DNA of 64,000 nucleotides from Anthracocystis setariae. Lineage: Eukaryota > Basidiomycota > Ustilaginomycetes > Ustilaginales > Ustilaginaceae. The DNA is taken from contig CAKMXJ010000042.1 in the NCBI GenBank assembly GCA_928724745.1, positions 186,001 to 250,000 on the forward strand. Reading direction: 5' to 3'. Of this stretch, positions 3,703 to 15,060 are shown piece by piece; position 1 is the stretch's first letter, and every line of letters begins with the position of its first letter. Position numbers and translations under genes: made by a program. The notes beneath the pieces were generated by a model. That model was not told the DNA's origin and ran no database searches. It saw only the letters and a program-made list of their open reading frames with translations.

Positions 3703-6700
3703 TTACACTTGATCGAATCCAAGCCTGAGTCGCAGAAGATCTTTGAGTACCAACTGCACTCGTTTTTCATCCGACTTGATCCTCAACGCCTCTTGCTGTG
3801 CAAAGTCCAACTCGTCGTCATCATCATTCTTGTCGTCCTTCTCCTTCTCCTTCTCCTCATCTTCCGCCTCCCGCTTCCTCTTCCCATTACTCTTATCAGC
3901 CTTAACAACATCCAACCCATCCCACATTCCCCTGAGCGTCTTTACAACCTCGAGCATCTTGGGCCTAGACAAACCCAAGAACGTGTCCAACAACCTTGCG
4001 TCCAGGATCCCCTTGTTGAGCGAGCGCGAGACAAAGTCATTTCTAACCGCCCTAAACGCTCTCGGATTCAGCGCGGCCACATGCTGGACACTTCTAACCA
4101 ACTGACCCTGCAACACATGTAGTCGTTTTGCCACTTTTTCATCCGTCGCCGAAAGCGACTCCACCGCTCCCGAGGTCTTGGCCAACAACAATCGATTCCT
4201 CCCCTCCTCCCTCCCGCGCAATTCGGAATCGGACAACCATCTGCCTCTACAAACCGTTGCCGCCACCGCTTCGGACGCAGTCTGAAACTCGCTCCTCAAC
4301 AAAAGTCTCTGACCCCCCAACGACGTCGAGACATGAGGCGCATACTCGTACAATCGTATCACCCCCTTGCCACTGCCAAACCCTTTGAACCCACCCAAAG
4401 CATCGCCACTCGTCGACACCAACGACAGACGCTCGTTATACACCAGATACTCGCCCAGCGTCGCATTCTGCTCGTGAATATCCCGACCGAGCGACACAAA
4501 CTTGTACGGTTCCTCCTGGAACGCCAGGAACCAAAGCGAGCGTTTGGCATCCGTGAGCAGCACGAGGTTCTTAATCACGCGGATCGAGGTGATGTAGAAG
4601 GGACAGTCGAGAAACGCGACCGAGATCAACCATTCCTCCTTCTCGAATGCGCGCACGTACAGTTTCTGACCACACGTACTCACCAGCAACCCATTCAGAT
4701 CGGCAATAGCCGTCACGGGCGCCCTGGAATCATCACGACAAACCAACTTCAGCCGATAATCGCGCCCTACCTGGAACCTGGACGAAACCACCTCGATCAC
4801 CTCGAACAGATATACCGACCCCTTGGCGGTGCGATCCTCACCGTGAAACGTCGTCGTCCCAGCCGCGATGAGCTGCTTGACCCCGCTCTCGCTGCTCGGT
4901 GCATCGAGCGTGACCACCTCGAGCGCACTGACGGTTTCGTTCGCTTCGAACTCATACCCATCGATCGGCGTGGCTATGTCTTGGTGGATGAACAGTTCCA
5001 GTGCACCGCGACGACCCATGGACGGATGCGAGTCTTGGTTGTGCAAGTCGTCTTCGGTGCCGGTGACGATGGGCTCGCCGTCGTCGTCGAAGAGGACGAA
5101 GCGGTTCGACTGGATCGAAGCGGCGATCACGGTGCATGTGGGTGTGTGCGATACAACGCGCGTATACTCGCGCCCCGTGCGAACCACACTTGACATCCAC
5201 GTAGTCGACGAAAACAGTCCCGACGGGCAACGCCCGAGAAACAAGGTACCGGAACGGTCCAAATACGCGTACTCCGCCTCGAGCTCGGATGACGTGCAGG
5301 CGGGAATCGAGGAGAGCGATGAGATGTCACCTGCAGCCCAGTCGAGCAGTCTATACCCGCCTTGGGCAGTCCAGCACAGCACACTGGCTGAAGCCTCCCT
5401 CCCACCGCCGAACACCGCCACCGCATTCCCACCATCCCACTGCCCTTGCCGCCCATCGCGATCAACAGCAAGCGACAATACTTCCAACTGCAGCTTAGTC
5501 CAACGCCAAGAATCATCAGTCGACCTCGTGCCACCTGCCGGCGCGGCCAGCAACTGCACCAGACACTTGTTGAACGCCAACCCTTGCGCAACCTCCTCCC
5601 TCCCTGCCTTGCCTCGCCTCGCCTCGACTTCTTCAGTCGTCGGCCAAATATTGGCCGTGTACAGTGTCAGCAAGTTGTCCTGAGTCAGCGAGACGATGGA
5701 AAGCATATCGCCAATGTGACACGCAACCACCGCACCCGTGGTGGCCGATTGACCTTGCAGCAGCTCGTAGTGACGATCGGATTCGTAGCGCAGTCGTTGC
5801 GGTTGCCCATTGAGACAATGGTTCTGCCAAACCAGATGCAGATCCGGTAGGGTGTAGATGCGCACAACACCGGCATGGTCGTACGTGAAGAGGTAGGCTC
5901 GGGGGAGGTCGATCGATGTGACGCTTGTGCGGTTGGCGTTCAAAGCGGCGGGAGCGTCGAGATCGTCCTCGCCATAATCGACCTCTTCGTCATCATCGTC
6001 GTCATTGGAAAGCGAACTCGACTTGGTCTGCCCAGCTTGGCTCTGCACCTTGGCCGGGATCACTTGGTGCATCACCTTGAATGTATCCCGAAACACATTC
6101 GCGCAGATAAACCGAACATCTTCCTGTTGCGACAACAGCTCGAGCTTGACCCATTGCCGTTGCACAAAGTCGAAATGGAAGAGGTTCATGCGTCCATCAG
6201 CAGCGACAAGTACGACGTACTCGTTGGCGTCGATACTGGCGTGAACAATTTTCCCTTGCTTGGCGTCTGAGGCCGAAATTAGCTCGATTTGGTGTACGAG
6301 CTCGAGTGTGTCGACCGATAACGCCTGGAGCGCATCGTGTGTGACGCGGGCAATGACGTCTCCGCCGACCAGTCCGCCTGCAGAGATAGTCGAGCCAGAG
6401 AGCGGGACGGTGTTGGTCCACGTCGCTTGCTGGTGCAGCGATGTTGGTGTGGAAACCTCACCCGTGCTCGTGAACGCGACCGAAGAATTAGTCTGAGAGT
6501 TGGACGCGATCATGTGGATTCCTCCTTTCGCATCCCTGGCGACGACAAACACTCTGTCAAAGGTCGACACATCCTCCTCTCCTCCGGCAGGGACGAGTCG
6601 TGTACGGTCCTGAGGAACAAAGCGCGGATCAAGATAGATCAACCCAGACTGATTGCCCGAGCCACACGCACCAACCAGACCGTATCGCTTGGAAGATCCA

Positions 6701-8412
6701 GGCTGGTCTGCAGGCAGCTTGCGTCTGGAAATGCTATGCAATCCGCCGTGGGAGCGAATCTCGTCCAGTTTGCGCACCGTGAGCACAGTCTTATCCTTGC
6801 CCACCCCCCTCGCCTTCGCAGCGCCAGCGGCAGCGTCCGAGGTAGCATACAGATCGTCATCGTAATCGAGATCCATGTGGTTGCCATCCGCATCCGTGCT
6901 CACCGGCTCTTGCTTGATAGCCTCCGCCTTTTCTTGCTCCGACAGAGGCTTTTTGACCGACAAGAGGTCATACAGCACCGAGTCTCCAGCCATGGACGCG
7001 CTGAACAGGTAACCGCCACTTGCCAGCGCGTCTTTCTTGGAGCTTGACTTTGGGGTGGCAGCCGGCGGTGCGATGGCGAGACACGATGGCGGAGGTCCGG
7101 TTGCGGGGACGAGTTGTTGGGACATCGGAAACGACTGCTCCATGCGCTCCAGTCGGATCCCCTCGACACTTCTGCCGTCCAGTTGGCAGCGGAATCGGTA
7201 CACGTCACCGTTGACGAGTGTCAGCACACCCTCTGTCTCGGCGGTGAAGGCAAGTTGAGAGCCTTGCAAGTCTGCGACGCCGGGCACTTCGAGGACGGCC
7301 TCGGCCTCGATGGCAGAAATGGTCTTGAACCAGTTGTTGATCGCCGTGACGACCACGCGACCGCTCTGGTCGACGTGCAAGATGCACGACATGCAGACCA
7401 CGAGCACGCCTCCAAGCGTTTGTGGGCATGGGAGCATGTAGAGGCAGTCGTAGGGAAGCGGTGAGCTAGTGGTGACGACAGGATGCGCCGAGCGGACGGT
7501 ACCATCGTCGATAGCATCGGCCGAGGAGCCGAGCGTTGTGCCATCGAGGGATGCGGACAGGTCGAGTGTGAACAGGTAGACCGAAAAAGTGTCTTTTCGT
7601 TCGGCCAACAGACCAGTCCAGGTCGGTGAGTGGGAGAAGAGCACAGCGACTGTCGGCTTTTGGAAACCGGGCAGAAAGCAAAAGTCCTTGAGGTTGCGAA
7701 TCTTGGGATCCACTTCGCGCATGGTAAGCACAAAGGAAGGCGAGTATGGCAGACTCTCCATCTCGACTGCCGCAGCCATGGTGGCCGCATCTGCCTTATC
7801 TCTGCCCAGATCGAATCCGAGGTCGTCGTCAAAGTCAAAATCGGCTGCGTCACGGTAGAAGGGCAGGATGGCAAGTGCGTCGTGTGGAAGCAGCAGTGCA
7901 GCGCATCTCGAGAGAGGGTCGACGTTGAGATTAGGCTGAAAGAGGTTTGGCGTACCGTTGAGAAGCTGTGGCGCACGCTCATAGGTGTGGATAGAGACAG
8001 TCTCGAGATCGTCGGTGGCGTCGTTCCACTCTAGCAACGCAAGCTTAGCGTCAGAGAACGAGACAAGCAGGCGGTCTCGACCATCCTTATCGCTCGCTAG
8101 CGTCTCTACTCGCTGCAGCCCGGTCACGGTGCCGAACAGATTGTGTTTTCGAGTGACGACAAGCTTGTGTTGAGTCTCGCTGCTGCGGCTGCTACCGGTG
8201 CCGAACACGTCCTTTGAGGCTGGGCGCTCGTAAACGTCGTAAATGGTGAGAAGGTCATCGCGTGCAGTCACGAGTTGGGTGCGTAGGTTGCCCCGATGTT
8301 GATAAAGTTGCTGCTTGTTTGAGGGTGCAGGGCTGTGAAAGTGAAGCTTGAGAAAGATGGCGTGGGTGCATCCGCCAGGAGCGATCTCCTGCTGATGGTA
8401 GCCACTCGCCAT
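3703..8412 (-). CDS. CFT1: Cleavage and polyadenylation specificity factor subunit CFT1 (CPSF160)
   Basis: Large beta-propeller scaffold of the nuclear pre-mRNA 3'-end cleavage/polyadenylation complex. A single exon encodes 1569 residues from the ATG at 8412 (MASGYHQQE); a longer reading from an upstream TTG is not needed. The N-terminus (LRTQLVTARDDLLTIYDVY) and the repeated propeller strands fit the CPSF160/DDB1 family. The C-terminal CPSF_A region spans about residues 1165-1530, including VYLFEVIEV, VRAFEKEEWL and the LALL/LDARLLDTFLGL-like end segments. Acidic low-complexity inserts (around YDDDLY and NDDDDDEEVDYGEDD) and a Lys/Glu-rich insert near the C-terminus (KRKREAEDEEKEKEK) make it longer than yeast Cft1 (1357) or human CPSF1 (1443). 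Its upstream region was split by the retrotransposon insertion 270 bp away. Confidence 0.95.
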   Translation of the reverse strand: MASGYHQQEIAPGGCTHAIFLKLHFHSPAPSNKQQLYQHRGNLRTQLVTARDDLLTIYDVYERPASKDVFGTGSSRSSETQHKLVVTRKHNLFGTVTGLQRVETLASDKDGRDRLLVSFSDAKLALLEWNDATDDLETVSIHTYERAPQLLNGTPNLFQPNLNVDPLSRCAALLLPHDALAILPFYRDAADFDFDDDLGFDLGRDKADAATMAAAVEMESLPYSPSFVLTMREVDPKIRNLKDFCFLPGFQKPTVAVLFSHSPTWTGLLAERKDTFSVYLFTLDLSASLDGTTLGSSADAIDDGTVRSAHPVVTTSSPLPYDCLYMLPCPQTLGGVLVVCMSCILHVDQSGRVVVTAINNWFKTISAIEAEAVLEVPGVADLQGSQLAFTAETEGVLTLVNGDVYRFRCQLDGRSVEGIRLERMEQSFPMSQQLVPATGPPPSCLAIAPPAATPKSSSKKDALASGGYLFSASMAGDSVLYDLLSVKKPLSEQEKAEAIKQEPVSTDADGNHMDLDYDDDLYATSDAAAGAAKARGVGKDKTVLTVRKLDEIRSHGGLHSISRRKLPADQPGSSKRYGLVGACGSGNQSGLIYLDPRFVPQDRTRLVPAGGEEDVSTFDRVFVVARDAKGGIHMIASNSQTNSSVAFTSTGEVSTPTSLHQQATWTNTVPLSGSTISAGGLVGGDVIARVTHDALQALSVDTLELVHQIELISASDAKQGKIVHASIDANEYVVLVAADGRMNLFHFDFVQRQWVKLELLSQQEDVRFICANVFRDTFKVMHQVIPAKVQSQAGQTKSSSLSNDDDDDEEVDYGEDDLDAPAALNANRTSVTSIDLPRAYLFTYDHAGVVRIYTLPDLHLVWQNHCLNGQPQRLRYESDRHYELLQGQSATTGAVVACHIGDMLSIVSLTQDNLLTLYTANIWPTTEEVEARRGKAGREEVAQGLAFNKCLVQLLAAPAGGTRSTDDSWRWTKLQLEVLSLAVDRDGRQGQWDGGNAVAVFGGGREASASVLCWTAQGGYRLLDWAAGDISSLSSIPACTSSELEAEYAYLDRSGTLFLGRCPSGLFSSTTWMSSVVRTGREYTRVVSHTPTCTVIAASIQSNRFVLFDDDGEPIVTGTEDDLHNQDSHPSMGRRGALELFIHQDIATPIDGYEFEANETVSALEVVTLDAPSSESGVKQLIAAGTTTFHGEDRTAKGSVYLFEVIEVVSSRFQVGRDYRLKLVCRDDSRAPVTAIADLNGLLVSTCGQKLYVRAFEKEEWLISVAFLDCPFYITSIRVIKNLVLLTDAKRSLWFLAFQEEPYKFVSLGRDIHEQNATLGEYLVYNERLSLVSTSGDALGGFKGFGSGKGVIRLYEYAPHVSTSLGGQRLLLRSEFQTASEAVAATVCRGRWLSDSELRGREEGRNRLLLAKTSGAVESLSATDEKVAKRLHVLQGQLVRSVQHVAALNPRAFRAVRNDFVSRSLNKGILDARLLDTFLGLSRPKMLEVVKTLRGMWDGLDVVKADKSNGKRKREAEDEEKEKEKDDKNDDDDELDFAQQEALRIKSDEKRVQLVLKDLLRLRLGFDQV

Positions 8413-8676
8413 GTTGAAGGGGTCCGTCGACAGGCAAGCTCTCAAGCGCCCTATGCACTTGCTAGGCTCGCCTTACCTTGACGACTTGATCCAAAGCAAA
8501 GCAAAAAAATGCTTTTCGAATGCGAGATGGACCCTTACCACGGCGGGTATAATATGGTCATGCAAAGGTAGTGTGATGCTGGAAGATCTGTCAAACCGAG
8601 CTGAGCTTCGAGAGCAGCAGCAAAAGCGCACGACCGTTCTCGGCTGTCAGACAGCGAGACTTCCGACTTCCGAGAC

Positions 8677-8681
8677 CAGTC
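8677..8681. repeat. Left target-site duplication (CAGTC)
   Basis: CAGTC directly precedes the left LTR and recurs at 15056-15060 directly after the right LTR. Five base pairs is the normal Ty1/copia duplication length. Confidence 0.95.
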
Positions 8682-8913
8682 TGTGAAAAATAAATGAGAA
8701 ACTAACTGGAATTTCGGTTGCCAAAATGCGCGAATCTAGCCAACTTATATACAGATCTGAGGTTGCGACGTCTGTGCTGTAGCATATCGCATATCGTAGT
8801 GAAGTCGCTGATGCATACCGCATATCGCATATCGAAAGTGTGGATCGGGGAAACTATCGCGAACTAACATATTTTGTGGGTTTTATTCTTTTGACTCGAA
8901 ACAATTCTTAACA
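8682..8913 (-). repeat. 3' LTR (left copy), 232 bp
   Basis: Identical by eye to 14824-15055. On the element's sense strand it begins TGTTAAGAATTG and ends TTTTTCACA. It contains four copies of GCATATC in two pairs (about 8783-8797 and 8820-8834). Confidence 0.95.
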
Positions 8914-8923
8914 CTCCCCCTTC
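8914..8923 (-). other. Polypurine tract of the retrotransposon
   Basis: On the minus strand GAAGGGGGAG lies immediately before the 3' LTR, the expected position for priming plus-strand DNA synthesis. Confidence 0.85.
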
Positions 8924-9029
8924 GAGGCAAGAGTGTTGCGACATCGATATGATCGCTTGAAACTTGAGTGGCGGACTTCGTAGCAGGGGAAGGATTCTAG
9001 GAACGGAATTTGAAACTGTCTTTTTATAC

Positions 9030-9863
9030 TTATTCTTCATTGTCGCTGGTGTCTGAGAACGCTCTCGGATTCTCCATGCATCGCGTGACTACGACTTCGG
9101 GGTCATGCTCGCGCTCCAAGTCTTCGTCGTCCAGGGGCTCGCAGAGATCGTATCTAGCGAGGAAATCGAAGTATTCCCCGAGCATTTCGTTATTTCCCTC
9201 GAACCAATGTACGCTTAGCTGTTGGATTAGTAGTCGGAGTTGATAGTCGAAGCCAATGTATTCATCGAGCATCTGCATTGTCCTTTCTCCAGTGGTTCGG
9301 AGATTCTCGATGGTAGCGTTGAGAGCAGTGTCTTCGGCGCGTAACGTTCGCATAGTTGATTCGAAGTCGTTTCTTGCCGCCCGAAGTTCTCCCTGACGGC
9401 GAGCCTTGTCGAGTTGGGTTCTTCGTGAGTTGAGGGAACGGACATTGGTGTCTAGGGAGCAGGGTCTCTTCTTCTTGTAACAACGAAAACACTTAGTGCT
9501 ACGACTTCCCCGCTTGACAACCTTTGCTGGGTGCTGACATCGGTGCCCTCCTACTCTACAGGTTTGGCACTTTTCTTCAGGGTCCTGCCCTCCGTCATTC
9601 CCATCCTCAGCCTCCGGCTCCAACTCGACTTCCTCCTCCTCTTCTTCGCCGCCCTCGTTGTCCCCCTCCTGACCATCGTCCGAGTCCTCCTCCCCATTGT
9701 CCGCGACGTCGGACCCTCCTTCTTCGCTACCTTCACCGTCATCGCACACCATTTCCATCATGCGCCTCTGGATCACCGAACTGGTAGCGCTCCCATCAGA
9801 GTCGCTGCCGTCGTTGCTGCTGTCGCTTTCAAAGCGAATGTGAGTAGGGCGAACAGTCGCCAT
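9030..9863 (-). CDS. Accessory retrotransposon protein: acidic region, two CX2CX6C clusters, coiled-coil-like tail
   Basis: An intact 277-residue frame lies between the pol stop and the 3' LTR, on the same strand as gag-pol, from ATG 9863. Residues about 15-97 are Asp/Glu/Ser/Gly-rich and strongly acidic. Then come CQTCRVGGHRC, a 15-residue basic spacer and CFRCYKKKRPC, that is two CX2CX6C units. This resembles a fungal Zn2Cys6 binuclear cluster, whose spacer is usually 5-12 residues, and similar cysteine-rich proteins of basidiomycetes. A helical, charged segment with heptad-like spacing follows (about 145-220). The acidic tail ends SDTSDNEE. The function is unknown; a DNA- or nucleic-acid-binding accessory or regulatory role is inference. 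It is not related to Gag, Pol or an envelope by sequence (no signal peptide or membrane segment). Confidence 0.8.
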   Translation of the reverse strand: MATVRPTHIRFESDSSNDGSDSDGSATSSVIQRRMMEMVCDDGEGSEEGGSDVADNGEEDSDDGQEGDNEGGEEEEEEVELEPEAEDGNDGGQDPEEKCQTCRVGGHRCQHPAKVVKRGSRSTKCFRCYKKKRPCSLDTNVRSLNSRRTQLDKARRQGELRAARNDFESTMRTLRAEDTALNATIENLRTTGERTMQMLDEYIGFDYQLRLLIQQLSVHWFEGNNEMLGEYFDFLARYDLCEPLDDEDLEREHDPEVVVTRCMENPRAFSDTSDNEE

Positions 9864-10584
9864 AATGAGTGGTATAGAGAGGAGTGTGTGTGTGTGTGTG
9901 GAGGGGGATTTGAGTGTTGTCGGATGGTTGAATTACCTCCTCTTCGTCGATGTCGGCGATCCTATATATAACTTTCTCCCCCTACTTCGTAGCTCCACCT
10001 GTTTTGCTATACGTTTGCTTGAGAAATCATCTTGTCTTTACCATTTCGCACCGTTTTCGCTGTACAGCCGTAGCGAATGCTTGAGCTAGACTGCTAAGTT
10101 GCCTGTCGATGTCGCCATATCTGCGCACCTCCGTACGGTCTGATTTCGGTGCGCTCTATCCTCTTTGCGCCGTTATCGTTCTGCGCAATCTTAACGCTTT
10201 GTGCGTGCTTGTCTTCATGGTTGAGGCATCGGACCACTAATCAATCGTATTCCCTTTGACCTCCGGCGATTTCGGTCGACGAAGTCGTAGTATTTTCCTT
10301 GCACTTGATATCCGAAGTCACGTTCGGTGACGGTTCGGGACGGTAATTTTGAACGTCCCACCAAATTTAACTTTCCCTTTCGGGATCTCTAATTTTCTTT
10401 TCGTTCCTTTTCCTTGGTGCATCCGAATGAAGTTTATTTCGGATCACTTCGGTGTCTTCATTATGCTTTGTCCCCCCACCTTTGCCACGATGTCACCCCT
10501 ATTCTTGGTTTTGTGAACCTTGAGTGTACCCTTGGCCCACTTTACTTCACATGTGGCGCCGACCGTATAATTTTATTTTGAGTT
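9864..10584 (-). other. Spacer between pol stop and accessory ORF, with TATA-like and purine-rich tracts
   Basis: This 721-bp segment inside the element has no coding frame of note. On the minus strand it holds a purine-rich tract with GTGGGGGGA at about 10467-10484, resembling a second polypurine tract, and a TATATATA box at 9963-9970, about 100 bp before the accessory ATG. A (GT)n tract at about 9882-9900 would lie in the accessory 5' leader. Confidence 0.6.
9963..9970 (-). promoter_or_regulatory. TATA-like box upstream of the accessory ORF
   Basis: TATATATA about 100 bp upstream of the ATG at 9863 on the same strand. It suggests a separate internal transcript for the accessory gene; this is inferred from position only. 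Confidence 0.4.
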
Positions 10585-13500
10585 TTAGTGCATGTTGAGC
10601 ATGCGTCGGCCTTCCTCGATTTTCGTTGGCCCGAGTGACTTCGTGAGGCAGTCTGCCCTTTGTTGCAGCGTTGTCACCGGTACCACTTTTACATCGCCAT
10701 TCCCGACGTGTTCCCTAATGAAATGGAATCGCACGTCAATATGCTTAGTTCGTGCATGAAATTTCGGATCTGCAGCAAGTTGCCTAGCTGCAGTGTTATC
10801 GCAGTGAACCTTAGTTGATTCATATTGTCGAAGTCCAAGCTCCGCTAGCAGGGCACGCGTCCATATGATATCTTTGACAGATTCGGTTATGGCAATGTAT
10901 TCGGCTACGGTTGTCAAGTCGGCAACTAATCCTTGTTTCTTTGAGAGCCAGTTTATCGGAGATCCGTATACAACGGTTACTACACCGGTTGTGGACTTCC
11001 TATCGTCTGTGTCGCCAGCGAAGTCGGCGTCACTGTAGCCTTCCAGCACGTCTGACGTCGCATTTCCTTTATAGAAGTGGATTCCAATGTTTTGCGTGCA
11101 TTTTAGATAACACAGCAAATGTATGGCCCACTTCATTGACGTCTTCGTGGGATTTTGAAGTTCCTTACTAAGTCGCCCAGTGGCGTAGCTTATGTCGGGT
11201 CTCGTGCCTGTGGCCGCGTACAGTAGCGATCCGACAATCATCCTATATTTCTTGTGTTCGTTTTCGTCGAGTGCGGTGACATCGGGCTTTTCTTCTTTTG
11301 TCGGAAGCGGTGTTGTCGCACCCTTTTCATCCTCCTTTAGGAATTTTCCGACCAATCGCTTGATGTATGCCGATTGACTGAGTTTGGTTTCGTTTAGCCC
11401 CCATGTGACTTCTAGTCCGAGTATATACTTGAGCTTGCCTCCTTCAGTCATCTTAAATCGCTTGGTGAGTTCCTTCTTGTAGGTGTCCATGTCATCTTGT
11501 GACCTCGCAACGATCACGATGTCGTCAACATAGACCGCGATGATGCATAGCGACTTCGACAATGTTCCCAGTTTGTATACCCCGAAGTCACTTTCAATTC
11601 TTGTGAATCCCATTTCCCTGAGGCTCGCGTCAAGCCTCTCGTACCATTTTCTTCCTGCTTGCTTAAGGCCGTAGAGTGCCTTCTTTAGCTTTAATGTCTT
11701 GCCGTTCCAGTATCCTGGCGGCGGTTTCATGTAAATGTCTTCGGTAATAATCCCATTTAGGAATGCTGTGACAACGTCCATCTGTTCCATTTTCAGGTCC
11801 AGTGAGGTTGTCAGTGCAATTAGGATTCTTAACGTCGAGAACTTGAGTACTGGGGCAAATGTTTCCTCGTAATCGATTCCTTCCCGTTGTGTGAATCCCC
11901 TGGCAACGAGCCTTGCCTTATACTTGTCAAGAGATCCATCCGGGTTCAGCTTGAGCTTGTAAACCCATTTGCAGTCGACAACGTGGCCATCGTTAGCTGG
12001 TTTGGCACAGACTTCCCAGGTCTTGTTTTCCTTGTGGCTGGCTAGTTCCTTATCCATTGCTTCTTTCCATCTTGGCCAGTCCGTCCTTGATTGTGCGTCT
12101 TCGAGGCTAATTGGGTCAAGACTCTTCCTTGGCATCTGGTCGAAGTCGATCTGTGTCGTCAAATTCGCATATATGACTTCGTCCACTCCGTCCACTTCTT
12201 GAATTTCCACTTCTCCTTCGTTTTCTGGGTCTGTGACTTCGTTTGTTATGATCGATTCATTGCTTACTCGTGGGTTTTCGTCCACGTTTACTTGATTTGG
12301 CCGGAATGTATGGTTTTTCTTGGCGGGAAACTCACTTTCAACGAAGGTGACGTCCCTGCTTACTTTTACGTCTACTAGGTTGAAGTCGATAACGTCATAC
12401 GCTTTGTGTTCCTTGCTTGAGCCTAGGTGTATCATTTTTCTGCTCCTTGGTTGGAGTTTTGAACCTGGTCCTTGTTCGGCCCTCTGGATGTGTACGTAGG
12501 CTGTGCATCCGAATGGTCGAATCGTTTCGATATCCTTTTGAGCCTTATCTCCAAGGAACATTTCTTGTGGTGTTGTCGCAGCGCCAGTCCAATCGTTGGG
12601 TATGCGATTTCGAATGTGTCCTGCATGCATTGCCGCATGAGTCCAAAATCGCGTGGGTAATCCTGACTCATAGAGCATGCATCGGACCATGTCCATAATG
12701 GTTCGATTCATCCTTTCAGCGACACCGTTTTGCTGTGGCGTGTATGGCGCTGTACGCCTATGCTGTATACCATTTTCGGTTAGAAATTCCGACATCCTAT
12801 CGTTGATGTACTCCCCTCCGTTGTCACTGCGGAGGAATGCTACCTTTTGCCCCGTCATCGTAGTCATGTATTTGTGGTAGACTTGGAAGAACAGGGTGAC
12901 TTGGTCCTTCCACTTCATTGGTATGACAGTGACATGCCTTGAGTAGTCGTCAACGAAGGTGAGGACATATTTATTTCCTTTTAGGTCTTCTTCGTATGGA
13001 CCCATGACGTTGGAGTGAACCATCTCCAAGGGTCTGGTTGACTTCGAGTTTGATCTGTCAAATGGACTTCGCGTGTGTTTTCCCACCTCGCATACGTCGC
13101 ACTGGATTCTTATGGCAGTCTTGTTTGGGATTCTTCTGCCGGTCCCTGTCTCGATCGCTTCTTTAATTGATTTTGTGTTGGCGTGACCAAGCCGCCTGTG
13201 CCAGGCTTCGATGTCCGTGTCTTTGATATTTGTGAGGTTGGCGACCTCGCGTTCGATAGTGTGTCCTTGCAACACCATCATGTTTCCTTCGTATCTACAT
13301 TGTAGTATTTTCTTTCCATTTGAGCTGATTTCGGCAGCTATACCCTTTTGTCCTGTGTCGAAGTTAATCTTTGTTGATTTGATTAGGTTTGCAAGCGAAA
13401 TCAAGTTGGCCGACAGTTCTGGAGCGTAGAGCACTTCATCAAGTGTTACGACGTCACCCTGTCTGCCGTCTATGGTTGGTACGAATTCCACTTTTCCCGT

Positions 13501-14727
13501 TCCTTCGACCTTGACTTCCTGGCCTGTCGCCGTCCTAATTCGTAAATTTTCTCCTTTCCTCGTCAACGTGTGGAAGAACTCCTTCTTGTTCGTCATGTGT
13601 GACGATGCCCCTGAATCGAGGACCCATCCTTCATCTCTGATGTGACTTCGGTCAGCGAGGAGGGATTTGTGATTACCGATGTCATCGGCAATCACTTGAG
13701 CTGTACTTGCAAAGTGGAGATTGTATGCGGCTGCAGGGTCTGCAGTGTTCGACACGTCCGTTTCTTGATTGTTTTCTTCGCCGAATTGTGTGGAAGCCAC
13801 GTGAGCTGATTCCGTGGTCTTGGTCCCGGGTCTCTGTTTCGACATCATAGCACCTTTCCTGCAGTGTTCAGTGTGATGTCCTAGACGCCCACACTTTGTG
13901 CATCTGAGTCCACACACTGCCTGGATGTGGCCTGGTTTGCCACATTTGTAGCATGTACGAACGGCGTAGTTGTTGTGTTGTCGTGGGCCTACTTGTTGGG
14001 GTCCCACTGACATCGCCATTTCCAACCTGGTGTTTGAGCGCGTCGCTTGTTCTCGAAGTAGTTCTTCTTCTCGTGCTCTGAGCGACCTCAGAGCGTCGTT
14101 GTACCTTTCCAACTCGTTGACTTCGTCAATCGTTTGAGTGACCTTGTGTAATTTTCCATTTTCGTCCTGAAATTGAAATTCTCTTTTCATGAATTTCTTG
14201 TATGTGTCGTTTTCGTGTTGTATCATTGCTTTCCATTGGTTGTATTCTGGGCAAAGTCTGGTTAGTAGCGCTAGCATGCGCCGTTCGATGTCCATCTTGT
14301 CTCCGACTAGGTCTAATTGTTCGCATATTTTGGCGATTCTTGATGCGAATGAATCGACACTTTCCTTGTCTTCTTGCTTGATTGTGTTTAACTGGCTTCT
14401 TAGTATTACGAGCCTTAGGCTCAGCCTTTCTTCAAAATGTTCGCGAAGTCGCTCCCACATTTCGTGTGCGGAGTCTAGTGACTTCACCAGGTGTCTGTAG
14501 TCCTGACCAATCGCGTATAGTATCATACCTTTTGCCTTCATGGCTGCTTTGTCCCATTCTTCCTTCGATTTAGCGGAATTTTTACTTAGTTTATCCATAC
14601 TCTGCGTGATGCACATGTACACTTTACCTTTCGACATCATTACTGCAGTGAAGTCTTCCTTCCAAGCGAAGTAGTCGTCCAACGACTTGAGCTTGGGAAT
14701 GCCGAGGAGTCCACTTTCTTTTTCCAT
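10585..14727 (-). CDS. Gag-Pol polyprotein of Ty1/copia retrotransposon (open frame, altered catalytic residues)
   Basis: A single uninterrupted 1380-residue frame from ATG 14727. Gag occupies about residues 1-250, with a UBN2/DUF4219-like core, followed by two CCHC knuckles at C259 (CYKCGKPGH) and C276 (CTKCGRLGH). The protease has DSGAS at D371. Integrase has an HHCC pre-domain and the core. The second and third acidic residues are present (D635 in RSDNGGEY, E671 in GVAERM, spacing 35), but the first, normally Asp in the HSDVxGP motif, is Asn573 (HSNVMGP). Reverse transcriptase has D984 and YVDD at 1066-1069. RNase H has D1233/D1235 and CDN, but the usual TEAEY reads TVAEY (Val1274), losing the catalytic Glu. 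Gag and Pol are fused with no frameshift, as usual in copia elements. Expression is presumably from the 5' LTR. The substitutions predict impaired integrase and RNase H. Confidence 0.95.
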   Translation of the reverse strand: MEKESGLLGIPKLKSLDDYFAWKEDFTAVMMSKGKVYMCITQSMDKLSKNSAKSKEEWDKAAMKAKGMILYAIGQDYRHLVKSLDSAHEMWERLREHFEERLSLRLVILRSQLNTIKQEDKESVDSFASRIAKICEQLDLVGDKMDIERRMLALLTRLCPEYNQWKAMIQHENDTYKKFMKREFQFQDENGKLHKVTQTIDEVNELERYNDALRSLRAREEELLREQATRSNTRLEMAMSVGPQQVGPRQHNNYAVRTCYKCGKPGHIQAVCGLRCTKCGRLGHHTEHCRKGAMMSKQRPGTKTTESAHVASTQFGEENNQETDVSNTADPAAAYNLHFASTAQVIADDIGNHKSLLADRSHIRDEGWVLDSGASSHMTNKKEFFHTLTRKGENLRIRTATGQEVKVEGTGKVEFVPTIDGRQGDVVTLDEVLYAPELSANLISLANLIKSTKINFDTGQKGIAAEISSNGKKILQCRYEGNMMVLQGHTIEREVANLTNIKDTDIEAWHRRLGHANTKSIKEAIETGTGRRIPNKTAIRIQCDVCEVGKHTRSPFDRSNSKSTRPLEMVHSNVMGPYEEDLKGNKYVLTFVDDYSRHVTVIPMKWKDQVTLFFQVYHKYMTTMTGQKVAFLRSDNGGEYINDRMSEFLTENGIQHRRTAPYTPQQNGVAERMNRTIMDMVRCMLYESGLPTRFWTHAAMHAGHIRNRIPNDWTGAATTPQEMFLGDKAQKDIETIRPFGCTAYVHIQRAEQGPGSKLQPRSRKMIHLGSSKEHKAYDVIDFNLVDVKVSRDVTFVESEFPAKKNHTFRPNQVNVDENPRVSNESIITNEVTDPENEGEVEIQEVDGVDEVIYANLTTQIDFDQMPRKSLDPISLEDAQSRTDWPRWKEAMDKELASHKENKTWEVCAKPANDGHVVDCKWVYKLKLNPDGSLDKYKARLVARGFTQREGIDYEETFAPVLKFSTLRILIALTTSLDLKMEQMDVVTAFLNGIITEDIYMKPPPGYWNGKTLKLKKALYGLKQAGRKWYERLDASLREMGFTRIESDFGVYKLGTLSKSLCIIAVYVDDIVIVARSQDDMDTYKKELTKRFKMTEGGKLKYILGLEVTWGLNETKLSQSAYIKRLVGKFLKEDEKGATTPLPTKEEKPDVTALDENEHKKYRMIVGSLLYAATGTRPDISYATGRLSKELQNPTKTSMKWAIHLLCYLKCTQNIGIHFYKGNATSDVLEGYSDADFAGDTDDRKSTTGVVTVVYGSPINWLSKKQGLVADLTTVAEYIAITESVKDIIWTRALLAELGLRQYESTKVHCDNTAARQLAADPKFHARTKHIDVRFHFIREHVGNGDVKVVPVTTLQQRADCLTKSLGPTKIEEGRRMLNMH

Positions 14728-14811
14728 TGTGTTATCTTGTTACTTGGTTAATGTTTGTTGGTCTGATGTCGTATCTTTTTCTTTTACTTAGCTTTTGCAG
14801 AGGAGTAGCTT

Positions 14812-14823
14812 GGGCTCATAACC
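14812..14823 (-). other. Primer binding site matching the initiator tRNA-Met anticodon half
   Basis: Directly after the 5' LTR, the minus strand reads GGTTATGAGCCC (followed by AAGCT). This is complementary to the anticodon stem-loop GGGCUCAUAACC of fungal initiator tRNA-Met, not to the tRNA 3' end. Drosophila copia uses the same kind of half-tRNA primer (PBS GGTTATGGGCCC). Confidence 0.85.
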
Positions 14824-15055
14824 TGTGAAAAATAAATGAGAAACTAACTGGAATTTCGGTTGCCAAAATGCGCGAATCTAGCCAACTTATATACAGATCT
14901 GAGGTTGCGACGTCTGTGCTGTAGCATATCGCATATCGTAGTGAAGTCGCTGATGCATACCGCATATCGCATATCGAAAGTGTGGATCGGGGAAACTATC
15001 GCGAACTAACATATTTTGTGGGTTTTATTCTTTTGACTCGAAACAATTCTTAACA
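14824..15055 (-). repeat. 5' LTR (right copy), 232 bp
   Basis: Identical by eye to 8682-8913. It adjoins the primer binding site and so is the promoter-bearing 5' LTR of the element. Confidence 0.95.
14886..14893 (-). promoter_or_regulatory. TATA box in the 5' LTR
   Basis: The minus strand reads TATATAAG, about 62 bp before the inner LTR end. It is a good TATA match in the transcription orientation. Upstream of it lie the paired GCATATC repeats, possible enhancer elements. Confidence 0.6.
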
Positions 15056-15060
15056 CAGTC
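15056..15060. repeat. Right target-site duplication (CAGTC)
   Basis: Matches 8677-8681 exactly and directly follows the right LTR. Confidence 0.95.

Follow-up and report, generated by a model that had tools for sequence, protein, structure and literature searches.

By analogy, the closest working parallels of the gene described here appear, from the accessible parts of the sources, to be Tas of the foamy viruses (PMC7390438) and the VANC proteins (PMC5735166). Tas (Bel-1) is a DNA-binding activator of both the LTR and an internal promoter, its gene has an internal promoter of its own, and the text available to us places its sites in the LTR and the internal promoter (PMC7390438). The VANC proteins of Arabidopsis VANDAL transposons are presented, in the available portions of two papers, as element-encoded anti-silencers whose short target motifs are enriched in the family of the element; the motif differs from one VANC to another, and coevolution of motif and protein has been proposed (PMC5735166, PMC10398659). 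Among plant LTR retrotransposons, additional ORFs (Grande gene23, RIRE2, Retand and env-like ORFs) are described in the part of the source at hand as conserved genes between pol and the 3' LTR, and the product of Grande gene23, which is driven by a separate promoter, as nuclear (PMC7264820). Boty (BcGypsy1) of Botrytis is a fungal LTR retrotransposon with an additional ORF, brtn, according to the accessible text (PMC8365987).

The gene followed up here, which we call ORF3, belongs to a young Ty1/copia element at 8682-15055 on the minus strand of the window, i.e. the whole 64-kb stretch of Anthracocystis setariae DNA that was analysed. The features of the element are as follows.

8677-8681, no strand: target duplication CAGTC on the side of the 3' LTR (sequence reading)
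8682-8913, minus: 3' LTR (TG...CA), identical to the 5' LTR; 23 family LTRs aligned
8744-8753, minus: LTR TATA box TGTATATAAG, 3' LTR copy (LTR alignment)
8783-8834, minus: heptad repeats CGATATG / CGGTATG in U3, preceding the LTR TATA box, 3' LTR copy (LTR alignment)
8914-8923, minus: polypurine tract GAAGGGGGAG (sequence reading)
8974-14450, no strand: 18 dispersed GACTTCG words (8 sense, 10 antisense), candidate ORF3 sites, in pol, spacer, ORF3 and 3' UTR
9030-9863, minus: ORF3, 277 aa, with acidic N-terminus, six-cysteine cluster and coiled coil (ATG to TAA; selection; relatives)
9198-9458, minus: predicted long helix or coiled coil of ORF3, residues 136-222 (structure models)
9459-9569, minus: six-cysteine domain of ORF3, residues 99-135 (alignment with 5 relatives, no Cys varying)
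9864-10584, minus: spacer between pol and ORF3 (sequence reading)
9963-9970, minus: TATATATA, some 105 bp before the ORF3 start codon, candidate internal promoter (sequence reading)
10585-14727, minus: gag-pol, 1380 aa, in Ty1/copia order (ORF and Pfam)
14808-14822, minus: primer-binding site GTTATGAGCCCAAGC (sequence reading)
14824-15055, minus: 5' LTR (TG...CA), identical to the 3' LTR
15056-15060, no strand: target duplication CAGTC on the side of the 5' LTR (sequence reading)

The fused gag-pol carries, in this order, gag, a zinc knuckle (below the Pfam cut-off), integrase and reverse transcriptase (RT). The position of the integrase before the RT in one pol (rve 566-664, RVT_2 901-1141), together with the TG..CA LTRs and the five-base target duplication, places the element in Ty1/copia (Pseudoviridae). 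The primer-binding site GTTATGAGCCCAAGC presumably matches the anticodon region of the initiator-Met tRNA. A 234-bp LTR at 8681-8914 is identical to the copy at 14823-15056, and five-base target duplications were also read in five other complete copies of the family. Within the LTR TATA box, TGTATATAAGTTGG is invariant in 23 of 23 aligned LTRs of the family; the heptad array upstream of it (CGATATG, at 8783-8834 and 14925-14976) has one extra unit in copies I and J. Seven of the ten copies with both LTRs have identical pairs and the others differ by 1, 3 and 3 changes, so that the family has been active recently. About 240 bp downstream of the element lies a minus-strand ORF (3703-8445) in which CPSF_A and RSE1/DDB1/CPSF1 propeller domains are recognised; since both are on the same strand, the 3' LTR faces this gene.

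The genome searched comprises 21.47 Mb in 36 contigs. Its copia elements were sorted into seven families (fam1 to fam6 and famA, names coined here; the window element belongs to fam1), not every RT row being assigned, and at least one copy of each family was inspected downstream of pol.

An earlier note on this DNA, made from the sequence alone, had reported an intact 277-codon frame on the gag-pol strand between pol and the 3' LTR, with an acidic region, two CX2CX6C clusters 15 residues apart, a coiled-coil-like segment and no membrane segment, and in all these points it holds. The frame at 9030-9863 (minus strand) reads from ATG to TAA without interruption. Residues 36-98 contain 31 Asp/Glu among 63 and a single Lys/Arg. 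The cysteine pattern is C99-x2-C-x6-C-x15-C-x2-C-x6-C135, and when the residues were shuffled 20,000 times it never reappeared. A helix is predicted at residues 136-222 or 141-222, with block pLDDT values of 74-96 from residue 141 on. The highest 19-residue hydropathy of the window ORF3 is 0.47, so that it has no membrane segment, and by the same measure (maxima 0.47-1.26) no transmembrane segment was found in the ORF3 of the seven families; an env-like protein was rejected on this ground. Foamy viruses have env, and in this the ORF3 elements differ from them. No sequence relation between Tas and ORF3 is known to us, and Tas is not known to have a six-Cys domain. Grande, RIRE2 and Retand are Ty3/gypsy elements. 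Their additional ORFs are antisense, unlike the sense ORF3, the env-like plant ORFs are reported to have membrane segments, and in the accessible part of the source none of the plant ORFs is described as combining a six-Cys product with a dispersed word (PMC7264820). Boty is also unlike the ORF3 elements, being named gypsy (PMC8365987) and having an antisense ORF (PMC7264820), as far as the available text of each goes; no six-Cys claim for brtn was found in the portion of PMC8365987 at hand.

The likeness to a Zn2Cys6 regulator that the earlier note saw was upheld for the cysteine pattern but not for the Pfam family. In the Zn2Cys6 pattern (PF00172) six cysteines are arranged as CX2CX6C-linker-CX2CX6C, and in fungal regulators the domain is usually N-terminal. 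Similar to Gal4 and Leu3, ORF3 has six cysteines at this spacing, a second cluster with basic residues and a coiled coil directly after it, but unlike them it is encoded by a retrotransposon, its Cys domain is central or C-terminal, and it falls below the PF00172 cut-off. The arrangement is strict in six of the seven families, the first cluster of fam2 being CX2CX11C. The Pfam scan of the window ORF3 gave no Zn_clus (PF00172) match, and over the families, fam5 left out, the best score was 10.5 bits (fam3) against a cut-off of 21. The Cys region of the window ORF3 has pLDDT values mostly below 50 in both structure models, and as proof of a binuclear cluster these models failed, both being of low confidence there. 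Nothing was retrieved by Foldseek with the first model (all matches at E > 3), PDB sequence searches gave nothing relevant, and a protein search with the fam4 Cys region gave no match at E <= 1. The Zn2Cys6 character of ORF3 thus remains a resemblance, not a Pfam family membership, and the six cysteines may bind zinc.

Three outcomes would have spoken against the earlier note's reading, namely a frame missing from the other family copies, homologues that are ordinary host genes at unrelated loci, and no purifying selection between copies; none of them was encountered. In fam1, 11 ORF3 loci were found (13 rows, two loci being split by insertions), and all 11 fam1 RT rows belong to them when matched by coordinates. 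Seven of the 11 copies are full length without a stop; copy F has one stop and copy K two, and H and J are interrupted. The frames measure 831, 834 or 849 nt, all multiples of three. Over pairs of subfamilies, with the decayed copy K left out, dN/dS was 0.059-0.165, for instance 0.059 for A-E (dS 0.55), 0.102 for A-B and 0.060 for B-E. Within subfamilies the ratio was 0.22-1.04 or undefined, and in pairs with K it was 0.15-0.57. The fam1 ORF3 is under purifying selection between subfamilies.

Among 5.8 billion proteins, two relatives of the window ORF3 were found with the single sequence and five with an alignment as query. Four of these come from contigs of 1.3-1.6 kb and the fifth, UTRI_00935 of Ustilago trichophora, from a contig of 1.9 Mb. 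The six cysteines are invariant in the window protein and its five relatives at 26-41% identity, as are Lys124, Arg127, Tyr129 and Arg133; in the relatives P0001 and P0002 the first Cys gap has 7 residues. A chance frame or antisense artefact is ruled out by the selection, by the length differences in multiples of three and by the invariant cysteines. The distant relative UTRI_00935 (P0005) is annotated as an uncharacterized protein.

An extra gene in a copia element, as the earlier note had it, is confirmed; as an oddity of one family it is not, since a third ORF with the six-Cys pattern is present in all seven families examined. None of 20,000 shuffles matched the pattern in any of the seven family proteins, and the ORF3 of fam2 and of famA have exactly six cysteines, all within the motif. 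An ORF3 row lies within 3.5 kb downstream and on the same strand for 68 of 81 copia RT (RVT_2) rows; conversely, 68 of 83 ORF3 rows sit behind a copia RT, and the same measure on the opposite strand gave an RT row for 0 of 83. Overlapping cross-matches and second pieces of one locus had been removed by hand before these counts. Judged by coordinates, several of the 15 ORF3 rows that are not behind an RT lie behind nested insertions or at contig starts, or are relics. All 16 ORF3 frames of fam6 are open and five of six in fam2; in famA the copy on contig C8 has ORF3 and that on C5 has lost it. The dN/dS of the Cys domain is 0.03-0.08 in fam4 and 0.06 in fam3 (one pair, saturated at dS 2.2), and that of the N-terminus is 0.36-0.46 in the two families; selection bears on the Cys domain in both. 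That all seven copia families examined have a third gene which is conserved and encodes a six-Cys domain is well supported. No description of a six-Cys third ORF in copia was found in the titles, openings of abstracts and passages covered, which came largely from freely accessible literature.

By RT the families form two clades, fam3/4/5/6 and fam1/2/A, with 45-50% identity across. Within the fam3/4/5/6 clade the ORF3 proteins are homologous (fam345-fam6 profile probability 97%). Across fam1 and fam2, comparison of widened profiles gave 69% with a score of 33.2, Cys-fixed shuffles having a mean of 18.7 and a maximum of 36.9 in 60, which is suggestive of homology; other pairs across the clades score below fam1-fam2. 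Old common descent of the ORF3 in both clades is the reading we prefer. Searches of the genome with ORF3 gave no clear host donor gene. A captured host gene was rejected as the main reading on this ground and because 68 of the 83 ORF3 rows follow a copia RT, although one solitary ORF remains. This 187-aa ORF (C20:160084-160419; L046:359-922, minus strand) has a six-Cys domain like that of fam3, fam4 and fam6, and more than 280 kb separate it from the closest copia RT row that lies upstream on the same strand; it may be a relic or a domesticated regulator.

Dispersed, family-specific words or palindromes were found in four families, fam1, fam3, fam4 and famA (the last read in part), and their presence there is well supported. 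In fam1 the word is GACTTCG, with 18 occurrences in the window element and 20 in copy fam1_E per 6.1 kb, where 2.5 are expected (Poisson P of 2e-6 after correction for 8192 words). In the window element 13 of the words are in pol, at all three codon offsets, two in the spacer, two in ORF3 and one in the 3' UTR; the fam1 LTR has none. Outside the element the word occurs 1.2 times per 7 kb, and over the whole window 28 times against 12.2 expected (0 of 100 shuffles). For calibration, eight host windows of equal size were counted; two of them held a word with a similar z-score, in 5 copies only, and these two words and a third host word had corrected P values of 0.01-0.02.

In fam3 the word is a 16-bp dyad, AACCCG-N4-CGGGTT, whose CCG-N4-CGG core we take to have the spacing of Leu3. 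At up to two mismatches there are seven in pol, three or four in the 5' LTR, and two (C15) or four (C36; three with 2 mismatches) in the spacer and the start of ORF3; shuffles of the LTR and spacer give an expectation of 0.01-0.04 there. Exact dyads number 7 and 9 per element and 0 in 57 kb outside. The fam4 dyad, AACAYTCA-N4-TGARTGTT, was found in the form AACACTCA-N4-TGAGTGTT 15, 16 and 17 times per fetched element when as many as 4 of the 16 bases may mismatch (0.3-0.4 in shuffles, maximum 4). Genome-wide there are 141 exact fam3 dyads (reversed-pattern control 0) and 71 exact AACAYTCANNNNTGARTGTT sites of fam4 (control 0), numbers that partly reflect copy number; among 50 listed places of the 141, 42 have a pol or ORF3 row of fam3 nearby, judging from the coordinates. 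In famA, GCGCACTT occurs 13 times in 2.7 kb of pieces from two copies, 1.3 being expected, and fam5, in the parts that were read, has one perfect AACACTCAACGTTGAGTGTT before ORF3. No dispersed word was detected in fam2, and none was clear in the parts of fam6 that were read. A palindrome of famA, TGCGCACTAAGTGCGCA, spans the pol stop codon (L040:342-358), and fam3 and fam4 dyads are also found at the end of pol.

By the counts across families and outside the elements, the words are nearly private to their own families. VANDALs are DNA transposons. Like the VANC motifs, the words of fam1, fam3, fam4 and, in part, famA are short, enriched in their own family and rare elsewhere, with none detected in fam2. 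Unlike those motifs, which are mainly non-coding and often tandem repeats in the available portions of PMC5735166 and PMC10398659, the copia words are dispersed and largely inside pol, and in running through pol they also differ from the Tas sites in LTR and internal promoter (PMC7390438, accessible text).

Several observations bear on whether the words are binding sites, and for what. The fam1 words lie on both strands and at all codon offsets, and the fam3 dyads in pol are read in two frames, as NPTSGS and KPDVGF, which points to double-stranded DNA. Retroelement Cys clusters often bind RNA, and ORF3 is encoded beside gag-pol, as would suit a second nucleocapsid or chaperone, a particle protein binding the genomic RNA through its six cysteines. 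Against this, pol in the four families checked already has one or two CCHC knuckles, and the nearly equal strand use of the fam1 words and the palindromic form of those of fam3 and fam4 again point to double-stranded DNA, so that we regard an RNA-binding role as highly improbable.

The dyads of fam3 and fam4 differ in sequence and occupy corresponding positions in pol. Six of seven are within 7 codons, a tolerance that was chosen after viewing the data, and random placement achieved this in 0 of 100,000 trials; at tighter limits, 3 of 7 are within 2 codons (73 of 100,000) and 3 of 7 within 4 (345 of 100,000). Two fam3 copies with 61% identity in U3 have two dyads in common there, each with 12 of 12 half-site bases unchanged and a variable centre; 8 of 389 windows of dyad shape are fully conserved in this U3. 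The second spacer dyad of fam3 keeps 11 of 12, which is not unusual (45 of 304 windows are as conserved). The synonymous rate in the dyads is not clearly lower than elsewhere in pol (dS 0.111 vs 0.175 in fam3, 0.139 vs 0.108 in fam4). A host factor might also be the reader of the words, or they might have arisen by mutation or a repeat process, the function of ORF3 being unrelated to them. The contact between ORF3 and words is putative, and fam2 has an ORF3 with no detected word, both of which would agree with this explanation; it is nevertheless distinctly unlikely, given that the words are nearly private to each family, that within one host fam3 and fam4 seem to have swapped whole sets of them at corresponding positions of pol, and that in fam3 they occupy two reading frames.

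The earlier note had offered control of the element's transcription, nuclear entry or targeting as possible roles. Words that are spread over the internal region and are not confined to promoters would be in keeping with a nuclear-entry, chromatin-tethering or integration-targeting factor that uses them as its grip on the cDNA. The fam3 dyads are, however, also present in U3 upstream of the TATA box, where their half-sites are kept at 61% U3 identity, and a factor of this kind is in our view quite improbable. The dispersed words favour DNA binding and self-regulation over these other options. For the regulator reading of the earlier note this means that nucleic-acid binding or transcriptional control gains support, conditional on ORF3 reading the words, while its captured host gene found no clear donor.

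A promoter of its own would be a further parallel with Tas: like the foamy-virus gene, ORF3 lies before the 3' LTR and has its own TATA box in three families, at -107 (fam1), -69 (fam2) and -55 (famA). These boxes suggest that ORF3 may have its own promoter and, it would follow, its own transcript. No canonical TATA was found before the first ATG in fam3, fam4 and fam6 or before the conserved Met in fam3-5. U3 and the spacer upstream of ORF3 share no 9-mer in fam1, and no shared words of U3 and spacer were found in fam1, fam2 and famA.

The elements evolve as mosaics. In two fam3 copies (L033 and L037) compared in 200-base windows, each confined to a single region, R-U5 and pol differ by 1.5-8.5% (15% in a 28-base end window), and the spacer, ORF3 and U3 by 24-42%. 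Between fam1 A and E, dS is 0.065 in pol vs 0.55 in ORF3, and in fam4 a similar divergence affects U3 and part of the ORF3 N-terminus, not the Cys domain. U3 and ORF3 are adjacent in the RNA, and a single template switch close to where pol ends can produce such a pattern, so that the linkage alone is no proof of function; it is compatible with a module of regulator and promoter. In fam1 the similarities of LTR and ORF3 sometimes disagree, B and E being near in the LTR and distant in ORF3.

We think it probable that ORF3 is an element-encoded, presumably dimeric, sequence-specific double-stranded-DNA-binding regulator of its own element, an activator or anti-silencer. In fam1 the protein would consist of an acidic disordered N-terminus resembling an activation region, a six-Cys Zn2Cys6-like domain and a dimerising coiled coil. 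It would be transcribed from its own promoter between pol and ORF3, enter the nucleus and bind the family-specific words or palindromes spread across its element; once bound, it may keep the chromatin of the element open and the LTR promoter active against CpG methylation by the host. The same binding evidence would fit an autorepressor or copy-number control, which damps transcription or marks copies for silencing and so limits harm to the host. Dispersed sites would suit repression at the level of chromatin, and fam1 has only 11 loci despite identical LTR pairs in 7 of 10 copies. Autorepression nonetheless seems unlikely to us, in that the acidic N-terminus of fam1 looks activator-like, and a protein that aids transposition would account more readily for the purifying selection seen on ORF3 in the families tested.

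To a broader picture we give somewhat less than even credence. A fungal copia lineage would possess private regulator-operator systems, with one Zn2Cys6-like dimer per family and its site written at least a dozen times into the element, pol included, at a cost in amino acids. Regulator, U3 and site array would diverge as a unit, gag-pol being homogenised by recombination, and the outcome would be sequence-specific self-activation or anti-silencing. If true, VANC or Tas would have a counterpart in a retrotransposon, with its own sequence-specific regulator and a dispersed site array in coding DNA. One could then test directly how elements evade silencing while the remaining genome stays silent, and the many regulator-site pairs of families and subfamilies in one genome could reveal how zinc-cluster specificity evolves. 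Annotation could be corrected as well, as smut genome annotations may list frames of the ORF3 type among the host genes.

In the fam1 ORF3, private C-to-T and G-to-A changes fall at CpG in 35 of 49 cases in copy K (contig C18), 7 of 8 in G and 6 of 7 in F (both on C4), and in copy E 0 of 3 C-to-T changes do so. The direction of change being assumed, the CpG decay in K, G and F is consistent with methylation of decaying copies.
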